Of a DNA stretch of 64,000 nt, positions 11,343-23,940 are shown one piece after another. Below the pieces are notes generated by a model. It was not told where the DNA came from, searched no databases, and was given only the letters and a program-made list of their open reading frames with translations. Positions within the stretch are counted from its first letter, which is position 1, and each line of letters starts with the position of its first letter. A program made the position numbers and the translations under genes. Source of the DNA: Alphaproteobacteria bacterium (GTDB lineage Bacteria; Pseudomonadota; Alphaproteobacteria; Micropepsales; Micropepsaceae); NCBI GenBank assembly GCA_947467345.1, contig CANIHD010000002.1:116899-180898 (forward strand), read 5' to 3'.

Positions 11343-12386
11343 ATGCTCATCTCGCGCTCGTCTATGGCGTGTGTCGCCATTGCTCTTGGTGCGTTGATCG
11401 GTCTCGGTGCGGCGCAATCTGCGGTCGGCACGCAATATCGCGCTGTCTATGGCTGGGAGAAAATGCCGGCGGGCCGCAAGCTTGGCGTCGTGACGGGTGT
11501 CATTCCCGATCCCGACGGCAAGCACATGTGGGTTCTTGACCGCTGCGGCGCGAACAATTGTGCCGGCACAAACATCGATCCCATTCTCAAATTCGATCTC
11601 GACGGCAATCTGGTGAAGAGCTTCGGCGGCGGCATCTTCGCCTGGCCGCATGGTTTCTTCCGCGACGCGGACGGTAATTTCTGGGTGACGGAAGGCTCGC
11701 CTGCCACCGACGCGCGTGGCGAAGCGGGGCGCAAGCTAGGCAAAGGCCATGAGGTTTTCAAACTGAGCCCCGAAGGAAAAGTGCTGATGACGCTCGGCAC
11801 GGCGGGCGTCGCGGGCAGCGACGCCACCCATTTCAACGGCCCCTCCGGCGTGGCCGTGGCGAAGAATGGCGACATCTGGATTGTCGATGGCCATCGCGAC
11901 GGCAACAACCGCATGGTGCGTTTCTCCAAGGATGGCCGCTTCATCAAATCATGGGGCGGGGGACCCGACGCGACGAGCGCGGCGCCTGGCCTCTTCAACG
12001 ATCCGCATCACATCACCATCGATTCGGAAGGGCGACTCTTCGTTTCCGACCGCGAGAACAACCGAATTGAGATTTTCGATGGCGAGGGAAATTTCCTGAC
12101 CGAATGGAAACAATTCGGCCGCCCCAGCGCGATCTATATCGACAAGAACGACACGATCTATGTCGCCGACGGCATGTCGGGCGCCGAACATAATCTCGGC
12201 TGGAATCGCGCGATCCGCATCGGCGATGCCAAGACCGGCCGTGTCGATACGCTCATTCCCGACAATCAGGAATACGGACGTGGACAAAGCGGCGTGGAGT
12301 TTCTCGCCACCGATCCGGCGGGGAATATTTATGCCGGCGAAGTCACCCATCAGCGTTTGGTGAAGTATATTCCGACCAAGCCGTAA
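11343..12386 (+). CDS. secreted NHL-repeat / 6-bladed beta-propeller protein (peptidyl-hydroxyglycine lyase-like)
   Basis: Repeated blade motifs: DGNFWVTEGS, GDIWIVDGHRDGNNRMVRFSKDGRF, GRLFVSDRENNRIEIFDGEGNF. Confidence 0.8.
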   Translation: MLISRSSMACVAIALGALIGLGAAQSAVGTQYRAVYGWEKMPAGRKLGVVTGVIPDPDGKHMWVLDRCGANNCAGTNIDPILKFDLDGNLVKSFGGGIFAWPHGFFRDADGNFWVTEGSPATDARGEAGRKLGKGHEVFKLSPEGKVLMTLGTAGVAGSDATHFNGPSGVAVAKNGDIWIVDGHRDGNNRMVRFSKDGRFIKSWGGGPDATSAAPGLFNDPHHITIDSEGRLFVSDRENNRIEIFDGEGNFLTEWKQFGRPSAIYIDKNDTIYVADGMSGAEHNLGWNRAIRIGDAKTGRVDTLIPDNQEYGRGQSGVEFLATDPAGNIYAGEVTHQRLVKYIPTKP

Positions 12387-13477: not shown

Positions 13478-14575
13478 TTAGCGCCGAGGCGCGCCGTTGG
13501 TCGGCGCCCATTTCTGCACGCGTTTTCCGTTGTCGACTTCGGTTGTGTAGAGATTGCCGCGTGAATCGGCGGCGATATTGTGCACCCAGTGCAGCTGCCC
13601 GGCCATGCGCCCGGGATGGCCGAACGTGCTCATCACCACGCCGTCGCTGCGGCGGATCACGCGCATCTCGTTATTGGTGCCGTCCACCATGATCAAATAG
13701 GTCTGATTGGCGTCAGGCCACAACACCATGTCCCACGCTGAGCCCGATCCTTGCGTCGTCGGCGCATAGATGAATTCGCGCACATAGGTACCGTCGCGGC
13801 GAAACACCTGCACGCGATTGTTGGAGCGATCGCAGATATATACCATTCCGTCATTCGCCAGCTTCACGCAATGCACCGGATTGGCGAATTGCTGCGAGGC
13901 GGGGTTGAACAAAGGCACCATAGCGTCGCTTGGCACTTTGCCATAGGCACCCCAATGGCGCTTGTAAGCGCCGGTGGCGTTATCGAATACGATGACGCGG
14001 TGATTGCCGTAGCCGTCGGCGACGAACAACTCATTTGCCGCTTGATCGATGGCGAAATCCGCCGGGCGTCCGAACCGTTTCGTATCGGCGCTTCCGGTGC
14101 CCGCGCCTGATGAACCGATCTGCAGCAGAAAACGTCCTTCGGGCGAGAACTTCAAAGCCTGCCCGTCATTCATACCGTTACCGCCGATCCAGACATTGCC
14201 TTGATGATCGATGCGGATGCCGTGCTCATTTTGTGGCCATTGAAAGCCGGTGCCGGGTCCGCCCCACGAACGCACAACATTGCCTTCGGAATCGAACACG
14301 ATCACTGGCGGCGCCGGCACGCAGCATTTGGAGCGGGGTGGCGTCAGCGTTGCGCCTTTTTCATCATCGGTGAGCGAGCCGGGGCGCTGGATGATCCAGA
14401 CATTGTCTTGTGCATCGGTGGCGACGCCCGCGATCTGGCCCAAAATCCAATTGTTCGGCAGCGTCTTCGGCCATGTCGGCACCACGGCGAATTCCGGTCC
14501 CTCGGCGAACGCGCCTGTTGCACATGCGAGCAGAAAACCCAGACTTGCAGCGAAGAGTTTGGTGCGCATCCCCAT
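13478..14575 (-). CDS. secreted NHL-repeat / 6-bladed beta-propeller protein
   Basis: Signal peptide; NELFVADGYGNHRVIVFD, GMVYICDRSNNRVQVFRRDGTYVREF blades. Confidence 0.8.
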   Translation of the reverse strand: MGMRTKLFAASLGFLLACATGAFAEGPEFAVVPTWPKTLPNNWILGQIAGVATDAQDNVWIIQRPGSLTDDEKGATLTPPRSKCCVPAPPVIVFDSEGNVVRSWGGPGTGFQWPQNEHGIRIDHQGNVWIGGNGMNDGQALKFSPEGRFLLQIGSSGAGTGSADTKRFGRPADFAIDQAANELFVADGYGNHRVIVFDNATGAYKRHWGAYGKVPSDAMVPLFNPASQQFANPVHCVKLANDGMVYICDRSNNRVQVFRRDGTYVREFIYAPTTQGSGSAWDMVLWPDANQTYLIMVDGTNNEMRVIRRSDGVVMSTFGHPGRMAGQLHWVHNIAADSRGNLYTTEVDNGKRVQKWAPTNGAPRR

Positions 14576-14708: not shown

Positions 14709-16487
14709 ATGGGCATTTCTCGTAGAGACATAATCAAAACCACCGCCATCGCGGGCGCCGGCGCTGTTGCCGGTGGTGTGATCGGCGCGCGCGTGGCAGC
14801 ACAGCCGGCAGGCCCAGCGCCGCTGACATGGGATCGTGAGGCCGATGTCGTTGTTATCGGCTCGGGCGCAACCGGATTGACGGCCGCTTTGCGCGCCCGC
14901 CAAGCCGGCGCGTCGGTGATTGTTGTCGAGGTGAACAGCGATATTGGCGGCCACGCCATTTGCAGCGGCGCCAATCTTCCCCTTGGCGGCGGTACGAGTT
15001 TTCAGAAACGCGCCGGCATCGAAGATTCCGCCGATCTGGTGTTTCGCGATCTCACCGATTGGTCGATCGTTCAACCGAATGGTTTTCCCGATTACCGTTA
15101 CAATGACCGCGAAATCATTCGCGCCTTTGCCGACAATTGCGCCCCGACCTTCGAATGGCTGGTCGGCCTCGGCGTCAAATTCATTAAGGACACGCCGGAT
15201 GGGCGTGCGGGCAGCTCGCACGGCAATTCGGTGCCGCGGCAAATGCATGTCGCGATTCAGCATTATCCCCGTGTGCAGACCGGCACGCCAATGCCGCAAG
15301 AAGAACAAATGACGTTCCAATCCGGCAACGGGTTGATGCGCCCCATAGAAGAGGGCGCGCGCAAAGCCGGCGTCGAAATTCTTCTCGAACACCGCATGAC
15401 CGCGCTGCATCGTGAAAGTCCTCATGCCGGGCGGATTCTTGGTATCGCCGCGGAGCATAACGGCGCGAAGCTGAACATCCGCGCCCGCAAGGCGGTGGTG
15501 CTGGGCACTGGCGGCTCAACAGGCAACGTCAATTTCCGGCGTATGTTCGATCCGCGTTTGACGGAGGAATATTGCGGCCTCGCCGGTATGCCGTGGTCGG
15601 ATCAGGACGCCAGCGGCGAGCTTGCCGGCATGGCGGTCGGCGCCGCGCTGTGGGGCCTTTACAACCAAACGGCTGAGCTAGGTTCCGTTCTCACAAAAGC
15701 CGGCAGCATCGGCTGCCAATATGGCTACGTGAATCTCACCTGGTACCCGGGTAGCCGCGTGTTCGACAAAGCGGGCTCGCAAGGGCTGGAAGTCGCCGAT
15801 TGGCAAAACGTCATCATGGTCAACATGCTCGGCAAGCGCTTTTATGACGAAACCGGAGATGATTTCACCGGCAACCAATACAATCAGGTCAAGAATTACG
15901 TTCAGGATTCATACCTGAATGCGAAGAACATGCCTTTCAACCCGAACAATTTTCTCAACGCAGCGATGGCGGGTATCGGCGATGGCCATAATGGCGGCGG
16001 ACCGATCTGGGCGATATTCGATGCCGATGCCGCGGCGCGCGAGAAATGGAATCCCACGCCGCCTTTCGTCGATGTCGCGAACGGATTTTTCTTCAGCGCC
16101 GACAGCGTTGCCGATCTCGCTGGCAAGATCGCGATGAAATATCAGCGCGTGCCGATGCCGCCCGCCGATCTGGAGGCGACGGTGGCGCGCTACAATTCCT
16201 TCGTCGATATCGGCGTCGATGCCGATTTTGGCAAGCCGGCACCCAAATACAAAATCGCTACGCCGCCATTCTATGCCGCGTGGTCGACACCGGTGCTGCA
16301 CGACACGCGCGCCGGACTTCGCATCAATGCCAAATGCCAGGTGGTGGATATGAACGGCGCGGTCATTCCCGGCCTCTATTGCGGCGGGGAATCAGCGGGC
16401 GGTTTCAGCATGCACGGCTTGGCGCGCGCCACCTGCCAAGGCTTCATCGCCGGTGCCGAAGCTGCAGCGGAAACCGTTTCCGCCTAA
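14709..16487 (+). CDS. Tat-exported FAD-dependent oxidoreductase (fumarate reductase/flavocytochrome flavoprotein-like)
   Basis: Start at ATG 14709; twin-arginine SRRDIIKTTAIAGAGAV; FAD motif VVVIGSGATGLTAALRARQAG; C-terminal GLYCGGESAGGFSMHGLARATCQGFIAG. Confidence 0.85.
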   Translation: MGISRRDIIKTTAIAGAGAVAGGVIGARVAAQPAGPAPLTWDREADVVVIGSGATGLTAALRARQAGASVIVVEVNSDIGGHAICSGANLPLGGGTSFQKRAGIEDSADLVFRDLTDWSIVQPNGFPDYRYNDREIIRAFADNCAPTFEWLVGLGVKFIKDTPDGRAGSSHGNSVPRQMHVAIQHYPRVQTGTPMPQEEQMTFQSGNGLMRPIEEGARKAGVEILLEHRMTALHRESPHAGRILGIAAEHNGAKLNIRARKAVVLGTGGSTGNVNFRRMFDPRLTEEYCGLAGMPWSDQDASGELAGMAVGAALWGLYNQTAELGSVLTKAGSIGCQYGYVNLTWYPGSRVFDKAGSQGLEVADWQNVIMVNMLGKRFYDETGDDFTGNQYNQVKNYVQDSYLNAKNMPFNPNNFLNAAMAGIGDGHNGGGPIWAIFDADAAAREKWNPTPPFVDVANGFFFSADSVADLAGKIAMKYQRVPMPPADLEATVARYNSFVDIGVDADFGKPAPKYKIATPPFYAAWSTPVLHDTRAGLRINAKCQVVDMNGAVIPGLYCGGESAGGFSMHGLARATCQGFIAGAEAAAETVSA

Positions 16488-16553: not shown

Positions 16554-17144
16554 TTAACCGCCGCCGGCCGGCGTGTTGCCGCGCGCGCGCGTGACGCCGT
16601 CGTCATTGTAACGGATGACCATGCCCTTATCGTCCAGCACCTGTAGCGAGACCTGGAACGCCGCGGGAGGCGGTGAACTTCCGGGCACGGTTGCCTCAAG
16701 CAAATAAAGGCGCTTGTCCTGCATGTGCATCACGCTCTGCGAGAAATATTTCTTGCCATCGGGCATGTTGATCTGCAGCTGGTGGCCGTCGATCTTGTCG
16801 ATATGCGCATAAGCGTCGAACACGATCTTCCCGGCGAGGTGTGCATCCCGTGAGAGATGCGCCACATGCGCATTCGCGCCCTTCAAATCGTTATATTCAG
16901 GCGAGCTGTTATAATTGATCACCGTCACCGTATAGACGCTGTCGCCGCGCGTTGAGGTGTACTTCTTCGCCGGAACCGAGAAGCCGTATTCGGTCTCAAA
17001 CATGATGTTTTCGACCTTCGGCTCACTCGGCAGATTGACGTAGAATTTCTCAGTCTTGTCGGTGTAGCCAATCCAATCCTGGGCGTAGGCGGCGCCCGCA
17101 CAGAGAACCGCGAGCGACAGAACCGCAAACATCTTCAGGCGCAT
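16554..17144 (-). CDS. secreted hypothetical protein, QDWI-family paralog 1
   Basis: Signal peptide ending AYA; QDWIGYTDKTEKFYVNLPSEPKVE; shared core with two upstream genes. Confidence 0.75.
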   Translation of the reverse strand: MRLKMFAVLSLAVLCAGAAYAQDWIGYTDKTEKFYVNLPSEPKVENIMFETEYGFSVPAKKYTSTRGDSVYTVTVINYNSSPEYNDLKGANAHVAHLSRDAHLAGKIVFDAYAHIDKIDGHQLQINMPDGKKYFSQSVMHMQDKRLYLLEATVPGSSPPPAAFQVSLQVLDDKGMVIRYNDDGVTRARGNTPAGGG

Positions 17145-17187
17145 GATACTTCCCTTTCGAAGAGTGGCCGGTTCACCGGCCTGGCAA

Positions 17188-17217
17188 TTTTATCGTTCGT
17201 CACTTTTATCGTTCGTC
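17188..17217. repeat. 14-bp direct repeat TTTTATCGTTCGTC x2 (2-nt spacer)
   Basis: 17188-17201 and 17204-17217 identical, in the gap between paralogs 1 and 2. Confidence 0.8.
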
Positions 17218-17220
17218 CAA

Positions 17221-17856
17221 TTAACGTCCGGCTGCGGCCGGTGCTGCTGGGGCGGGCACTGCTGCTGCAGCAGGAGCGCCGCCACCACGGCCGGCGCGGG
17301 TCACGCCATCTGCCTGATAGCGAATGGGGCGTCCTTCATCGTCCAGAATTTGCAGCGAGACTTGGAAGGCCGCCGGTGGCGGCTGGCCGGGCGGCGTGCG
17401 CGCTTCCAGAATATAGAGCCGCTTATCCTGCTTATGCATATGGATTTCGGCCCAGTATTTGTGCCCATCCGCTTCGTTGATCTGGATCTGCAGCCCGTCG
17501 ATCATGTCGATCTGCGCGAAAGCGTCGTAAACGATTTTGCCTTCGTGGGTTTCGCGGATGTTATGCGCGGCAAAAGCCACCGAGCCCAGCGCATCCATCA
17601 CTTCAGGCGTCTTGGCGTAATTCACCACGGTCACGGAGTACGACGCTTCACCCCGCGTTGCGGTGAACTTCTTGGCCGAGACTGTGAAGCCATATTCAGA
17701 TTCATAGGGGAATTCTTCGACCTTTGGCTGCGCTGGAAAATTGACGAAGAATTTCTCCGTCCGTTCGGTGAAGTCGATCCAATCCTGCGCATAGGCTGCG
17801 CCGGCAAACATGACAAGCGCCGCGGCGGCGGCCAGCTTGAACATATGCATGAACAA
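17221..17856 (-). CDS. secreted hypothetical protein, QDWI-family paralog 2
   Basis: QDWIDFTERTEKFFVNFPAQPKVE; FDAFAQID, KRLYILEA, PPPAAFQVSLQILDDEG shared; Ala/Pro-rich tail. Confidence 0.75.
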   Translation of the reverse strand: MFMHMFKLAAAAALVMFAGAAYAQDWIDFTERTEKFFVNFPAQPKVEEFPYESEYGFTVSAKKFTATRGEASYSVTVVNYAKTPEVMDALGSVAFAAHNIRETHEGKIVYDAFAQIDMIDGLQIQINEADGHKYWAEIHMHKQDKRLYILEARTPPGQPPPAAFQVSLQILDDEGRPIRYQADGVTRAGRGGGAPAAAAVPAPAAPAAAGR

Positions 17857-17901
17857 CCCCTCCCGAATGGGCCCAACCGATGGGCTGCATTCATTTTTTG
17901 A

Positions 17902-18486
17902 CTATTGAGCGCCTGCCGCGCCGCGCAAGACGCGGGTCCGGTTTCCGTCGGCGTCGATATTGTAGCGAACGCCGCGCCCCTCTTCGTCGAGGATCGACAG
18001 CGAGGCTTGGAACAGAGCCGGCGGCGGTTGTCCCGCCGCGACATCGGCTTCGAGAACATAGAGCCGGCTCTTGTGCAGATGGATCGCGATAAAGAGGCGG
18101 CGTTTGTCAGGCCGCGTGAATTGCAGCTGATGCCCCTCGATGCGGTCGATCTGAGCAAACGCATCATAGGTAAGTTCGCTGCCCTTCTCACGCTCGCGGA
18201 AGAGGTGCGCCAAATAAGCGTAAGAGCCGCGCACGTCAGTGACTTCGGCGTCGAGATAATTCCACACCGTCACGTAGTAATGATTGTTGCGTTGGTTGGC
18301 GGTGTATTTCTTGCCGGTCAGCATGGCGCCGTATTCCGACTCCATGGTCACGTCTTCGATCTTCGGTTGTTCCGGAAGATTGACCGAGAACATTTCGGCT
18401 TTATCGGTGAATTCGATCCAATCCTGCGCGAATGCGGCGGTGGTCAGTGCCACCAAGGCTGCCAAGACGATTCCAACGCGGTGCAT
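17902..18486 (-). CDS. secreted hypothetical protein, QDWI-family paralog 3
   Basis: QDWIEFTDKAEMFSVNLPEQPKIE; TYDAFAQIDRIEGHQLQ; SRLYVLEADVAAGQPPPALFQASLSILDEEG. Confidence 0.75.
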   Translation of the reverse strand: MHRVGIVLAALVALTTAAFAQDWIEFTDKAEMFSVNLPEQPKIEDVTMESEYGAMLTGKKYTANQRNNHYYVTVWNYLDAEVTDVRGSYAYLAHLFREREKGSELTYDAFAQIDRIEGHQLQFTRPDKRRLFIAIHLHKSRLYVLEADVAAGQPPPALFQASLSILDEEGRGVRYNIDADGNRTRVLRGAAGAQ

Positions 18487-18639: not shown

Positions 18640-19755
18640 TTAGAACGTCACCACCGAGCGGATCGAGTGCCCCTCATGCATCAGGTCGAAGGCGGTGTTG
18701 ATCTCGTCCAGCTTCATAGTGTGGGTGATCAGATCGTCGATATTGATCTTGCCCTCCATGTACCAATCGACTATCCGCGGCACGTCCGTGCGGCCGCGCG
18801 CGCCGCCAAAGGCGGTGCCCTTCCAAACCCGGCCGGTCACCAGCTGGAAGGGGCGGGTGGCGATTTCCTTGCCCGCCTCGGCGACGCCGATGACGATCGA
18901 TTCTCCCCAGCCGCGATGGCAGCATTCCAGCGCCTGCCGCATGACCGAAACATTGCCGGTGGCGTCGAAGGAGAAATCCGCGCCGCCGCCGGTGAGATCG
19001 ACCACCGCCTGCACCACCTTGTCGTGACCAACCTCATTCGGATTGACGAAATGCGTCATACCGAATTTCTCGGCAATCGCCCGTTTAGACGGGTTGATAT
19101 CGATGCCGATGATCTTGTCGGCGCCGACCATACGGGCGCCCTGAATGACGTTCAGGCCGATGCCGCCAAGACCGAACACCGCCACATTGGCGCCCGGCCA
19201 CACTTTGGCGGTGTAAATGACGGCGCCAATGCCGGTGGTGACGCCACAGCCGATATAGCAAACCTTATCGAACGGCGCGTCGGAGCGGATTTTCGCCAAG
19301 GCGATCTCCGGCAGCACGATATAGTTCGAGAAGGTCGAACAACCCATATAGTGGAAGAGGGGATTGCCGTTGTGATGAAAGCGGCTGGTGCCGTCCGGCA
19401 TCAGGCCTTGGCCCTGGGTGCTGCGAATGGCGGTGCAGAGGTTCGAGCGGTGCGACAGGCAGGTTTTGCACTGGCGGCATTCCGGTGTGTAGAGGGGGAT
19501 CACATGGTCGCCCGCCTTCAGCGACGTGACCCCGGCCCCGACCTCGCGCACGATACCTGCACCTTCGTGACCTAAGATGACCGGAAATTTGCCTTCGGAG
19601 TCCAGGCCGGAAAGCGTGTAGGCGTCGGTGTGACAGACGCCGGTGGCCATGATTTCGACCAGCACCTCGCCCTCTCTGGGACCGTCTAAAGACACCATTT
19701 CGATGGTGAGGGGCTTGTTCGCCGCCCATGCGACGGCGGCGCGGGTCTGGATCAT
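18640..19755 (-). CDS. frmA: S-(hydroxymethyl)glutathione dehydrogenase / class III alcohol dehydrogenase
   Basis: [20 protein letters not shown], zinc-site [54 protein letters not shown]; start at [10 protein letters not shown] preferred. Confidence 0.9.
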
Positions 19756-19884
19756 GTCAGTCTCCACTCAATACAGGTGGCTTTGTTCCCGACTCTTGGC
19801 GCCAAGGAAAGGCCAAAGAGCGGGCTTGGCGCGCTGTTCACCGTGGACCTATGCTCGGGCAGCCCATCGGCCTGGAGAAGCTCC

Positions 19885-21807
19885 ATGTCCAAACCGCCCA
19901 AGATCAAACGCCGCCAATTCCTAGCCGGTGCCGCCGCGGCAGGGCCTGCCATTGCCTTGGCTGCCAGCGGCACCCGCGCCGTCGCACAAACCTCCAGCGT
20001 CCCTCCCGTTCCGCCGGATGAGTCGCAGGCCCCGACTACCACCGAGCCCATTCACGGCAAGGCCGGCTCCGACTTCATGGTCGATGTCATCAAGTCGCTG
20101 GATATCGAATATGTCGCCTCGGTCGCGGCGTCGACATTCCGGGGCCTGCACGAATCCTTTCTGAATTATGGCCAGAACACGAAGCCGGAATTCATCACCG
20201 CGCTGCACGAGGACGTCGCGGTCGGTATCGCGCATGGCTACGCCAAGGTGGCCAAGAAACCGATGATCGCCATGGTGCATGGCACGGTCGGTCTGCAGCA
20301 TTGCGCGATGTCGATCTACAACGCCTATGCCGACCGGGTACCTATCATCATTCTCTCCGGAAACATCGCCAACAGCGTTACGCGCATGCCCAATGTGGAA
20401 TGGAATCACAGCGCGCTCGATCAGAACGCGATGGTGCGCGATTTCACCAAATGGGACGATCAGCCAGCGTCGCTGCAGGCCTTTTCCGATTCCATGCTGC
20501 GTGCCTATACGCTGGCCACCACGGTGCCGATGGCGCCGGTGCTGATCACCGCCGATGCCGATTTGCAGGAAGATGCGATTCCGGATGGCATGGAGGCGCG
20601 TCTTTCCATCCCACGCTTACGCGCACGGGCGCAACCCATGGGCGATTCCGGCGCCGTGCGGGAAGCCGCGAAGCTTTTGGTCGAAGCCGAATATCCCGTC
20701 ATCTATTGCAACCGCTATGGCCGCACCGAAAAGGCGCCGGCGCTGCTGATCGAGTTGGCGGAGCTGCTCAACGCCGCCGTGGTCGATCCGCATATGCGGA
20801 TGAATTTTCCCAACCGGCACAAATTCAACCACAGCATGCGGCGCGAACTGGCGCTGGCGGCGGCGGATGTTATTTTGGCGCTGGAGCCGATCGAGCTTTG
20901 GGGGCTCACCAACACCGTGGCTGATGTGGACCTTCGCCCCAATCGCGCCATGCGGCGCAATCCCAATCTTAAAATCATTCACATCGGCAGCGAAGCGCTG
21001 ATGATGAAATCGAACTACGGCGACGTGCAGCGTTTCGCCTCGGTCGAATTGTCGATTCCGGGGGACGCCGAAGCCACCATGCCGTCACTGATCGAAGCGG
21101 TGCGCGCTGAACTTTCCCCGGTGCGGCGCGCGTCCAATGAAGTGCGCGGCCTCATGCTCGCCGAGCAAAGCGCGGGGTTGATGGACGCGGCACGGCGCGA
21201 GGCGGCTTTTGCCTGGGACGCAAGCCCGATTTCGAGCGCGCGGCTTTCCATGGAATTGTGGGACCAGATCAAAACCGACGATTGGATGATGCCGACCGAA
21301 ACACAGCTGATGTCGGACTGGCCGTATCGTTTGTGGGATATCACCAAACCCTATCAGACCATGGGCGGATCGGGTGCGCAGGGTGTCGGCTACAACACCC
21401 CGGCGGCCATCGGCGCCGCGCTCGCTAACAAACCGCATGGGCGGCTGACAATCGCGATTGCCGGGGACGGCGATTTCAACATGGCGCCGGCTTCCGCTAT
21501 TTGGACCGCCGCGCATCACCAAATTCCGATGCTGATAATCGTGCGCAACAACCGCGCTTTTCATCAGGAGGTGATGTACGTGCAGAATATGGCGGTGCGG
21601 CGCAACCGCGACCCGGCGAATTGCTTCATCGGCACAACCATTCGTGAGCCCAATATAGACCACGCGCAGATCGCGCGCGGCTATGGGCTTTATGCCGAAG
21701 GGCCGATCGAGAATCCGAATGAACTGGGACCGGCGATACGGCGCGCGCTCGCGGTGGTGCGCCGGGGCGAGCCGGCGCTGCTCGATGTCATTGCGCAGCC
21801 CCGGTGA
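19885..21807 (+). CDS. ThDP-dependent enzyme (acetolactate synthase-like fold) with predicted Tat signal
   Basis: Start at ATG 19885 (GGAGAAG upstream); KIKRRQFLAGAAAAGPAIALAA; catalytic-Glu region LHEDVAVGIAHGYAK; ThDP motif GDGDFNM...IIVRNN. Confidence 0.85.
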   Translation: MSKPPKIKRRQFLAGAAAAGPAIALAASGTRAVAQTSSVPPVPPDESQAPTTTEPIHGKAGSDFMVDVIKSLDIEYVASVAASTFRGLHESFLNYGQNTKPEFITALHEDVAVGIAHGYAKVAKKPMIAMVHGTVGLQHCAMSIYNAYADRVPIIILSGNIANSVTRMPNVEWNHSALDQNAMVRDFTKWDDQPASLQAFSDSMLRAYTLATTVPMAPVLITADADLQEDAIPDGMEARLSIPRLRARAQPMGDSGAVREAAKLLVEAEYPVIYCNRYGRTEKAPALLIELAELLNAAVVDPHMRMNFPNRHKFNHSMRRELALAAADVILALEPIELWGLTNTVADVDLRPNRAMRRNPNLKIIHIGSEALMMKSNYGDVQRFASVELSIPGDAEATMPSLIEAVRAELSPVRRASNEVRGLMLAEQSAGLMDAARREAAFAWDASPISSARLSMELWDQIKTDDWMMPTETQLMSDWPYRLWDITKPYQTMGGSGAQGVGYNTPAAIGAALANKPHGRLTIAIAGDGDFNMAPASAIWTAAHHQIPMLIIVRNNRAFHQEVMYVQNMAVRRNRDPANCFIGTTIREPNIDHAQIARGYGLYAEGPIENPNELGPAIRRALAVVRRGEPALLDVIAQPR

Positions 21808-21814
21808 GCGAACC

Positions 21815-22159
21815 ATGAAACATGTCCTGCTCGCGTTTCTGCTTGCCGCCACGCCTTCAGTGGCATTCGCACAAAATGCGGAAACTGAAAATGCCGAAAA
21901 TGGCAAACGCATATTCGAAAATTTCGGCTGCGCCGGCTGTCACGGCTACGAAGGCCAGGGTTCGCGCGATGGCGCGCGCCTCAACCCGGCACCGAGCATC
22001 GAAGTGATGCTGCTGCAATTGCGTCAGCCGCGCGATCTGATGCCGCGCTATCAGGAAAGCCTGATCTCGAATCGCGATGCTGCCGATTTGCATGCCTATC
22101 TCGCGAGTTTTCCTCCGGCGCCTGATCCGAAAACGATCCGTCTACTGACGGAGAATTGA
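21815..22159 (+). CDS. small periplasmic c-type cytochrome
   Basis: Signal peptide MKHVLLAFLLAATPSVAFA; heme motif CAGCH at 21929-21943; later Met (LMPRY); 7 bp downstream of the ThDP gene stop. Confidence 0.85.
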   Translation: MKHVLLAFLLAATPSVAFAQNAETENAENGKRIFENFGCAGCHGYEGQGSRDGARLNPAPSIEVMLLQLRQPRDLMPRYQESLISNRDAADLHAYLASFPPAPDPKTIRLLTEN

Positions 22160-22855: not shown

Positions 22856-23770
22856 CTATTTCAACGAGCGATACACCACGCGAACGAAATTTCCTGCTTG
22901 TTGCGGCGTGACGCCGAGTTTCGCGTCGTTGTCTGCATTGGGCCGCGCTGCGACCGCTTCGTCTTCGCTCTTTCCTTCGGCGATCAGCTTCGCGATGCGC
23001 TCGCGCGCCTGAACCAGAACTTGCCGATACTCGACCACTCGATCTTTGCTGCCGAGCGGCCCATGCCCCGGCACCACTTTGCTGTTGTCGTTTCCAGCGG
23101 CGAGAATGACATCGACGCCCTCGATCATGCGATCAATGCCGCCGCCATAGGGCACGTCGATATTGGGATAGCGGCCCAAGGTGACGATATCGCCGGTCAC
23201 GAGCACATTCGCATCGCGGAAATAGACGTAGGAATCGCCATCGGTGTGCCCAACCACATGTTTGACTTCGGCCACACGCCCGCCTTGGCGGATCATGACG
23301 CCGGCATTGTTATAGGTTTGCTTCGGCAATCCCGCTTCGGGATAAGCCGCCATGACATTGCCGGTGAGACCGTTGGTCGTGCCGGCGGCGAGGCGCGTCT
23401 TCACGGCTTCGTGCGCCACGATGTTGGCGCCGCGCGCGGCGAAGAATGCATTGCCGCCCGTGTGATCGCGGTGGAAATGGGTGAGGATGATGTGGCGCAC
23501 CGGGCGCGGCGAAATCGCCTCGACAGCGGCCGCGAGTTTGTCGTTCATCTCGGCGAACTGGGTGTCGATCATGATGAGGCCATCATTGCCGACCGCGACC
23601 ACCACGTTGGCGCCTTCGCCTTGAAGCAAATAGGTCTGGCTGCCCAGATTGGTTGTCTTCACTTCCGCGGCCGCGAAATTGGGCGCCGGATTTCCCGGCT
23701 GGAATTGTTGCGCGGCACCGAGAAGCACTGTGGAGACGCCCGCAAACACCGCTATCGCAAACCGATTCAT
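22856..23770 (-). CDS. secreted MBL-fold metallo-hydrolase
   Basis: Signal peptide MNRFAIAVFAGVSTVLLGAAQ; LTHFHRDHTGG; VVGHTDGDSYVYF; VVPGHGP. Confidence 0.85.
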   Translation of the reverse strand: MNRFAIAVFAGVSTVLLGAAQQFQPGNPAPNFAAAEVKTTNLGSQTYLLQGEGANVVVAVGNDGLIMIDTQFAEMNDKLAAAVEAISPRPVRHIILTHFHRDHTGGNAFFAARGANIVAHEAVKTRLAAGTTNGLTGNVMAAYPEAGLPKQTYNNAGVMIRQGGRVAEVKHVVGHTDGDSYVYFRDANVLVTGDIVTLGRYPNIDVPYGGGIDRMIEGVDVILAAGNDNSKVVPGHGPLGSKDRVVEYRQVLVQARERIAKLIAEGKSEDEAVAARPNADNDAKLGVTPQQAGNFVRVVYRSLK

Positions 23771-23940
23771 GCGCATTTCCCCTATTCTTTTTCTCAAGCG
23801 AAACCTGTCATAAAATTTATTCGATTGCACGGGTCCGGTTTCTTCCCGCTCAGGCGGGCTCGCTTGGAACAGAGATTGCTGCTTAGGTCCGGGTAATTGT
23901 TTCGATTCCTGTCGCCCTACCGCAAAAGGCAGTCCCCCGC

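Follow-up and report, generated by a model that had tools for sequence, protein, structure and literature searches.

A putative Tat-exported thiamine diphosphate enzyme conserved with a cytochrome c partner

Thiamine diphosphate (ThDP) enzymes are textbook cytoplasmic catalysts. In the 64,000-nucleotide stretch of alphaproteobacterial DNA analyzed here (the window), a ThDP enzyme gene that begins with a candidate twin-arginine (Tat) signal peptide lies directly upstream of a gene for a secreted cytochrome c, which raises the question of whether the two products form a respiratory unit outside the inner membrane. Were a conserved and widespread group of these enzymes exported and linked to a cytochrome c, keto-acid chemistry would shift to the periplasm; the pairing suggests an undescribed route by which electrons enter respiration on the outer side of the inner membrane.

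Organization of the two-gene unit

An earlier note on this DNA had described an ATG with a ribosome-binding site, a twin-arginine start, an intact ThDP GDG...NN motif with its Glu region, and, 7 bp past the ThDP stop, a CAGCH-containing cytochrome c with a signal peptide. Each of these features is borne out at the positions collected in Table 1. GGAG precedes the ATG at 19885 at the usual spacing, the stop codon occupies 21805–21807, and the cytochrome gene starts at 21815. The ThDP protein contains the three domains of the ThDP decarboxylase superfamily (TPP_enzyme_N, residues 61–182; TPP_enzyme_M, 258–398; TPP_enzyme_C, 479–635), all above their Pfam cut-offs, together with the cofactor Glu (E109) and the conserved D528-G529-D530 and N555-N556. 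The downstream protein is a class I-type cytochrome c with a hydrophobic leader as secretion signal, a CxxCH motif, a candidate axial Met, and a Cytochrom_C/CBB3 profile match. Differences of the ThDP gene from a 65%-identical congeneric gene amount to 0.24, 0.21, and 0.52 at the three codon positions, as expected for a gene under purifying selection.

The N-terminus of the ThDP protein, MSKPPKIKRRQFLAGAAAAGPAIALAASGTRAVAQ, has the standard Tat layout, in which KRRQFLAG (RRxFL) is followed by a hydrophobic stretch and an AxA-like cleavage site; residues 1–37 are of low confidence in the AlphaFold model. Genes for TatC, for proteins of cytochrome c assembly, and for a heme-copper oxidase (COX1) are present in the same genome. 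Throughout this work the Tat designation refers to the motif, the hydrophobic stretch that follows it, and their conservation, and is thus a motif test and not the output of a predictor. On this basis we infer that the ThDP enzyme is exported.

Table 1. Coordinates of the ThDP–cytochrome c unit within the window
Feature	Position	Strand	Evidence
Exported-type ThDP-dependent enzyme gene, 640 aa; PYR, middle, and PP domains	19885..21807	+	Pfam PF02776/PF00205/PF02775 above cut-offs; AlphaFold pLDDT 86; fold matches BFD/AHAS/GCL/BAL
Candidate Tat signal peptide KRRQFLAG..., predicted cleavage between AVA and Q	19885..19986	+	Sequence; motif in 119/120 close homologs, lacking in distant homologs
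Glu109, cofactor-activating Glu of ThDP enzymes	20209..20211	+	83/84 exported homologs; aligns with BFD cofactor Glu
His132, place of benzoylformate decarboxylase His70	20278..20280	+	84/84 homologs; profile alignment to BFD
ThDP/Mg motif (G)DGD...NN, residues 528–556	21466..21552	+	D528, G529, N555, N556 invariant in 84
Glu562 at NN+6, presumed place of pyruvate decarboxylase catalytic Glu	21568..21570	+	84/84 exported homologs; Asp in this genome's three cytosolic homologs
Mono-heme class I-type cytochrome c with signal peptide, 114 aa	21815..22159	+	Pfam PF00034/PF13442; partner at 107/117 homologous loci
Heme-binding motif CAGCH	21929..21943	+	CxxCH in 107/107 partner cytochromes (built into search pattern)
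MPRY, candidate axial Met ligand; family consensus MPPY	22040..22051	+	MP in 107/107 (demanded by collecting pattern)

Conservation and co-divergence of the pair

Six short peptides were used to scan 85,462 species genomes, which yielded 174 confirmed relatives of the ThDP protein. The best 80 loci among them share 45–61% identity with it and come from Acidobacteria and Alpha-, Beta-, Gamma-, and Deltaproteobacteria. A Tat motif was scored as RRx[FLIVMYA] followed by a hydrophobic stretch before the ThDP core, and a partner cytochrome as a reading frame with CxxCH...MP no more than 700 bp after the ThDP stop. Among non-redundant homologs of 41% identity or more, 119 of 120 have the Tat motif; the remaining one (L066) is truncated where its contig ends. 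Among the close homologs with enough downstream sequence, 107 of 117 are followed by a cytochrome c of the same type, whose CxxCH lies a median of 137 bp past the ThDP stop. The same cytochrome pattern occurs elsewhere in those loci at a rate of about 0.004 per 700-bp window, which rules out pairing by chance. The earlier note had named homologs consistently lacking both signal and partner as the result that would overturn its proposal and had suggested a search for co-occurrence across genomes; the opposite of the former was found, and the two genes do co-occur. These genomic patterns strongly support the proposal that the ThDP enzyme is exported and coupled to a cytochrome c, and the pair is a conserved system.

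Approximately 8% of the homologs have no cytochrome nearby, which counts against this interpretation. At L062, L071, and additionally L172 (seen in L174), the same strand carries no cytochrome, but one of the same kind lies convergently downstream; at L018, L029, L076, L128, L135, L145, and additionally L171, none was found in the available sequence. No fused ThDP–cytochrome genes were seen. At six loci (L019, L024, L042, L045, L088, and L092) the partner is a two-domain cytochrome with two CxxCH motifs and not a mono-heme protein; at L092, the two motifs are deduced from two Cytochrome_CBB3 stretches.

Distant homologs present a different picture. Those with at most 37% identity show neither the Tat motif (0/18) nor the cytochrome (0/16 testable), and both are likewise missing from L163 (42% identity) and from other non-exported homologs at 31–39%. 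The cytosolic homologs of 31–42% identity that reside in the same genomes (L005–L007, L163–L167, L169, and L170) belong to the same superfamily branch and contain the same core catalytic residues, but differ from the exported group in lacking both signal and partner. The window's own genome contains three further ThDP copies in tandem (49–52% identity) and three distant copies (34–37%) on another contig; each of the tandem copies has its own cytochrome c downstream. Six congeneric genomes have several ThDP copies apiece. Tandem arrays in congeneric genomes comprise four ThDP–cytochrome pairs at L150 (G005:C132) and three at L089 (G000:C1:109001-129000).

In a tree of 99 genes, built by a quick search under one substitution model, a single branch with an SH-aLRT value of 100 separates the exported group from the rest. 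Pairwise distances between ThDP proteins correlate with those between their cytochromes (107 pairs, r 0.53; 1000 shuffles gave no value above 0.13). Species history alone could produce this value, and the test was therefore repeated with 29 pairs that are nearly all from the window's genus and mostly paralogs. The Mantel r rose to 0.75 (highest of 2000 shuffles, 0.20), and the ThDP protein and its cytochrome had a nearest neighbor in common in 22 of these 29 pairs. The pairs have thus duplicated and diverged as units. Such co-divergence fits a specific partner and is no proof of contact; part of it stems from the duplication history that both genes share, regardless of any interaction.

These findings bear on whether the ThDP protein leaves the cytoplasm at all. 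The twin arginines and hydrophobic stretch could form a membrane anchor, or the protein could remain cytoplasmic, as do other enzymes of this fold, and the Tat assignment is made at the level of a motif. We consider this very unlikely in light of the near-universal RRxFL and hydrophobic stretch among the close homologs, the single origin of the exported group, and a cytochrome partner that must be periplasmic. In this fold, ThDP enzymes assemble as dimers or tetramers that bind the cofactor at their interface. Export by Tat would therefore require that the assembled oligomer be carried across the membrane or that the oligomer form outside, a point against the exported, cytochrome-coupled enzyme that we favor.

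Active site and comparison with known families

Residues H108, H132, H139, D528, G529, N555, N556, E562, and M564 are invariant in the 84 exported sequences compared, and E109 is conserved in all but one. Profile alignment to benzoylformate decarboxylase (BFD) equates E109 with the cofactor Glu and H132 with His70. For the BFD triad Ser26/His70/His281, Ser83 and His132 align and no clear counterpart of His281 is apparent, at an overall identity of about 20%. The loop after NN reads xYHQExM instead. E562 lies six residues past NN at what we take to be the place of the pyruvate decarboxylase (PDC) catalytic Glu (Zymomonas Glu473); the three cytosolic homologs encoded in this genome have Asp there. 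Some positions that are otherwise conserved in the family differ in the window copy (e.g., N80V, S84T, and E110D), which keeps the catalytic residues. It reads GDGD where many relatives have xDGD. In most exported homologs, including L003 and L004, the first Gly is replaced (NDGD, PDGD, or SDGD), with the metal-binding Asp and NN retained.

The middle domain reads (V/I)AD-R-x-A-R-T at 274–281 and G-L-E-x-x-D-F-W at 332–343. The FAD loops of acetohydroxyacid synthase (AHAS) and pyruvate oxidase (GxG and GARFDDR-like) were not seen in this domain when it was compared by eye with these motifs, and by this judgment the enzyme is probably flavin-free.

BFD, AHAS, glyoxylate carboligase, and benzaldehyde lyase match the AlphaFold model to a similar degree; therefore, the fold does not tell the reaction. 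Among NCBIfam models, the best match is NF006203 (PRK08327, thiamine pyrophosphate-requiring protein), a family with no assigned function, which covers the whole core at 240 bits, under its cut-off of 456. The BFD model NF005485 scores 144.8 bits (cut-off 493), acetolactate synthase models at most 124 bits, and pyruvate oxidase 77.5 bits (cut-offs at least 363), so that none of the models listed exceeds its cut-off. BFD and its relatives (4q9d, 1bfd), the best profile and fold matches, have in common with the window protein the three-domain fold, the cofactor Glu, the His70-like His132, and the GDG/NN motif, but they are cytoplasmic and have no cytochrome partner.

The mixture of fold matches accommodates a reaction without decarboxylation, in which addition of the ylide to an aldehyde, or its cleavage of an acyloin or diketone, produces an enamine that the cytochrome oxidizes. 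Benzaldehyde lyase, glyoxylate carboligase, and 2-hydroxyacyl-CoA lyase appear among the matches besides the decarboxylases, and genes for Mo-dependent aldehyde oxidoreductase-type enzymes and aromatic monooxygenases are found near some loci. An exported dehydrogenase of aldehydes or acyloins is nevertheless fairly unlikely, inasmuch as the best profile matches are benzoylformate decarboxylases and His132 and Glu562 suit the decarboxylation of 2-oxo acids.

In its proposed job, the window enzyme resembles pyruvate oxidase and pyruvate:quinone oxidoreductase (LpPOX, PoxB), in which oxidative decarboxylation by ThDP feeds the respiratory chain. PoxB, however, is a peripheral flavoprotein on the cytoplasmic side with a quinone acceptor, whereas the window enzyme has a Tat signal, a cytochrome c partner, and no FAD loops that we could see. 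Methanol dehydrogenase with cytochrome cL exemplifies periplasmic oxidation of a substrate with a cytochrome c as acceptor. To our knowledge, periplasmic cytochrome c-linked dehydrogenases use PQQ, flavin, Mo, or Cu, and none uses ThDP. D-malate:cytochrome c oxidoreductase likewise oxidizes its substrate in the periplasm and reduces a cytochrome c (PMC12294151). The likeness of the window pair to such systems lies in conserved pairing and co-divergence. Searches of an open-access library yielded no account of an exported ThDP enzyme or of one paired with a cytochrome c; this absence carries little weight, because that library leaves out preprints and the majority of subscription papers; the main text of a survey of Tat substrates in P. 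aeruginosa does not mention thiamine (PMC6085387).

Proposed electron route and genomic neighborhood

We propose, with a probability of roughly 55%, that the pair comprises a periplasmic, flavin-free ThDP oxidoreductase, probably a decarboxylating 2-oxo acid dehydrogenase, and a dedicated cytochrome c that receives its electrons. The two genes would then specify one extracytoplasmic redox unit. The ThDP enzyme would fold with its cofactor in the cytoplasm prior to export by Tat, while the cytochrome would be exported by Sec and acquire heme in the periplasm. The ThDP ylide would attack the carbonyl of the substrate, most likely a 2-oxo acid because of the BFD- and PDC-like residues, and departure of CO2 would generate the Breslow (enamine) intermediate. 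The dedicated cytochrome c, and not bound FAD, may oxidize this intermediate one electron at a time and would in turn feed the terminal oxidase. Decarboxylating dehydrogenation, the class of substrate, and the transfer of electrons all belong to this model, which raises the chemical question of whether heme c can oxidize a Breslow intermediate directly. We know of no physiological reaction in which a ThDP intermediate reduces heme c directly, and this weighs against the model.

If the model is correct, ThDP joins the cofactors known to feed cytochrome c. We give even odds to the broader idea of a new class of respiratory dehydrogenases, in which Tat-exported, flavin-free ThDP enzymes oxidize 2-oxo acids or related carbonyls outside the inner membrane and pass electrons from the enamine directly to dedicated cytochromes c, with several paralogous pairs per genome in the window's genus. 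Because the pair is carried by Acidobacteria and Proteobacteria that are common in soil and fresh water, its substrate may be relevant to the turnover of carbon. Cultured carriers include Limnohabitans sp. 15K (L083) and Caballeronia zhejiangensis, which has a plasmid copy (L092).

Alternatively, the cytochrome could work with another enzyme, and the BFD-like His and PDC-like Glu also suit non-oxidative decarboxylation; together with the oxidation of aldehydes or acyloins, this is the chief rival of the model. The ThDP protein would then be an exported decarboxylase or carboligase, and the cytochrome would accept electrons from a different enzyme that oxidizes the aldehyde product, or would share only regulation. 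Consistent with this possibility, the active-site residues are those of non-oxidative enzymes and no flavin site is apparent. Against it, no third gene was found to be conserved with the pair at the loci of relatives: most of them lack nearby homologs of the genes that surround the pair in the window, namely those for the alcohol dehydrogenase, the Tat flavoprotein, the metallo-hydrolase, and the secreted paralogs. Pairwise co-divergence also favors a direct partner. We therefore regard a non-oxidative enzyme as unlikely and retain the decarboxylating dehydrogenase as the preferred reading.

Among scanned neighbor proteins in other genomes, TctC receptors account for 17 of 89 and FAD monooxygenases for 9 of 89; MFS transporters and UbiD also occur, and on a Caballeronia plasmid the pair adjoins a ring-hydroxylating dioxygenase cluster. 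These neighbors point loosely to metabolism of organic or aromatic acids, but none of them accompanies the majority of pairs. This is only a hint, because the scanned neighbors had been chosen beforehand for having homologs at other loci and these lineages are rich in TctC genes.

Several genes beside the pair in the window were considered individually. A class III alcohol dehydrogenase (18640–19767), transcribed divergently, would suggest a link to formaldehyde; it was rejected as a conserved element, having no homolog near any relative examined. A secreted metallo-beta-lactamase-fold hydrolase (22856–23830, minus strand) is closest to zinc metallohydrolases of the quinoprotein relay system, below cut-off. 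Three tandem paralogs (16554–17144, 17221–17856, and 17902–18486, within 16554–18486, minus strand) encode proteins of about 195–210 amino acids with signal peptides and the motif QDWI.(Y/F)T(D/E)(K/R)...; they have no Pfam match and no homolog near other ThDP loci. On the plus strand, 14724–16487 encodes a Tat-signal flavoprotein (SRRDIIKTTAIAGAG) of the flavocytochrome c/ketosteroid dehydrogenase-like FAD_binding_2 family, which scores under every listed NCBIfam cut-off. The flavoprotein and the secreted paralogs were dismissed as partners since neither is conserved nearby, save for one flavoprotein fragment by L168.

Two secreted NHL-repeat propellers (11343–12386, plus strand; 13478–14575, minus strand) are weakly ScyF-like, and the ThDP enzyme is reminiscent of ScyA of the scytonemin pathway. 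A scytonemin-like pathway was rejected, as the NHL proteins reach only 71 and 94 bits against ScyF (cut-off 350). A few other ThDP loci (L054, L175, L101, and L031) have related NHL genes nearby.
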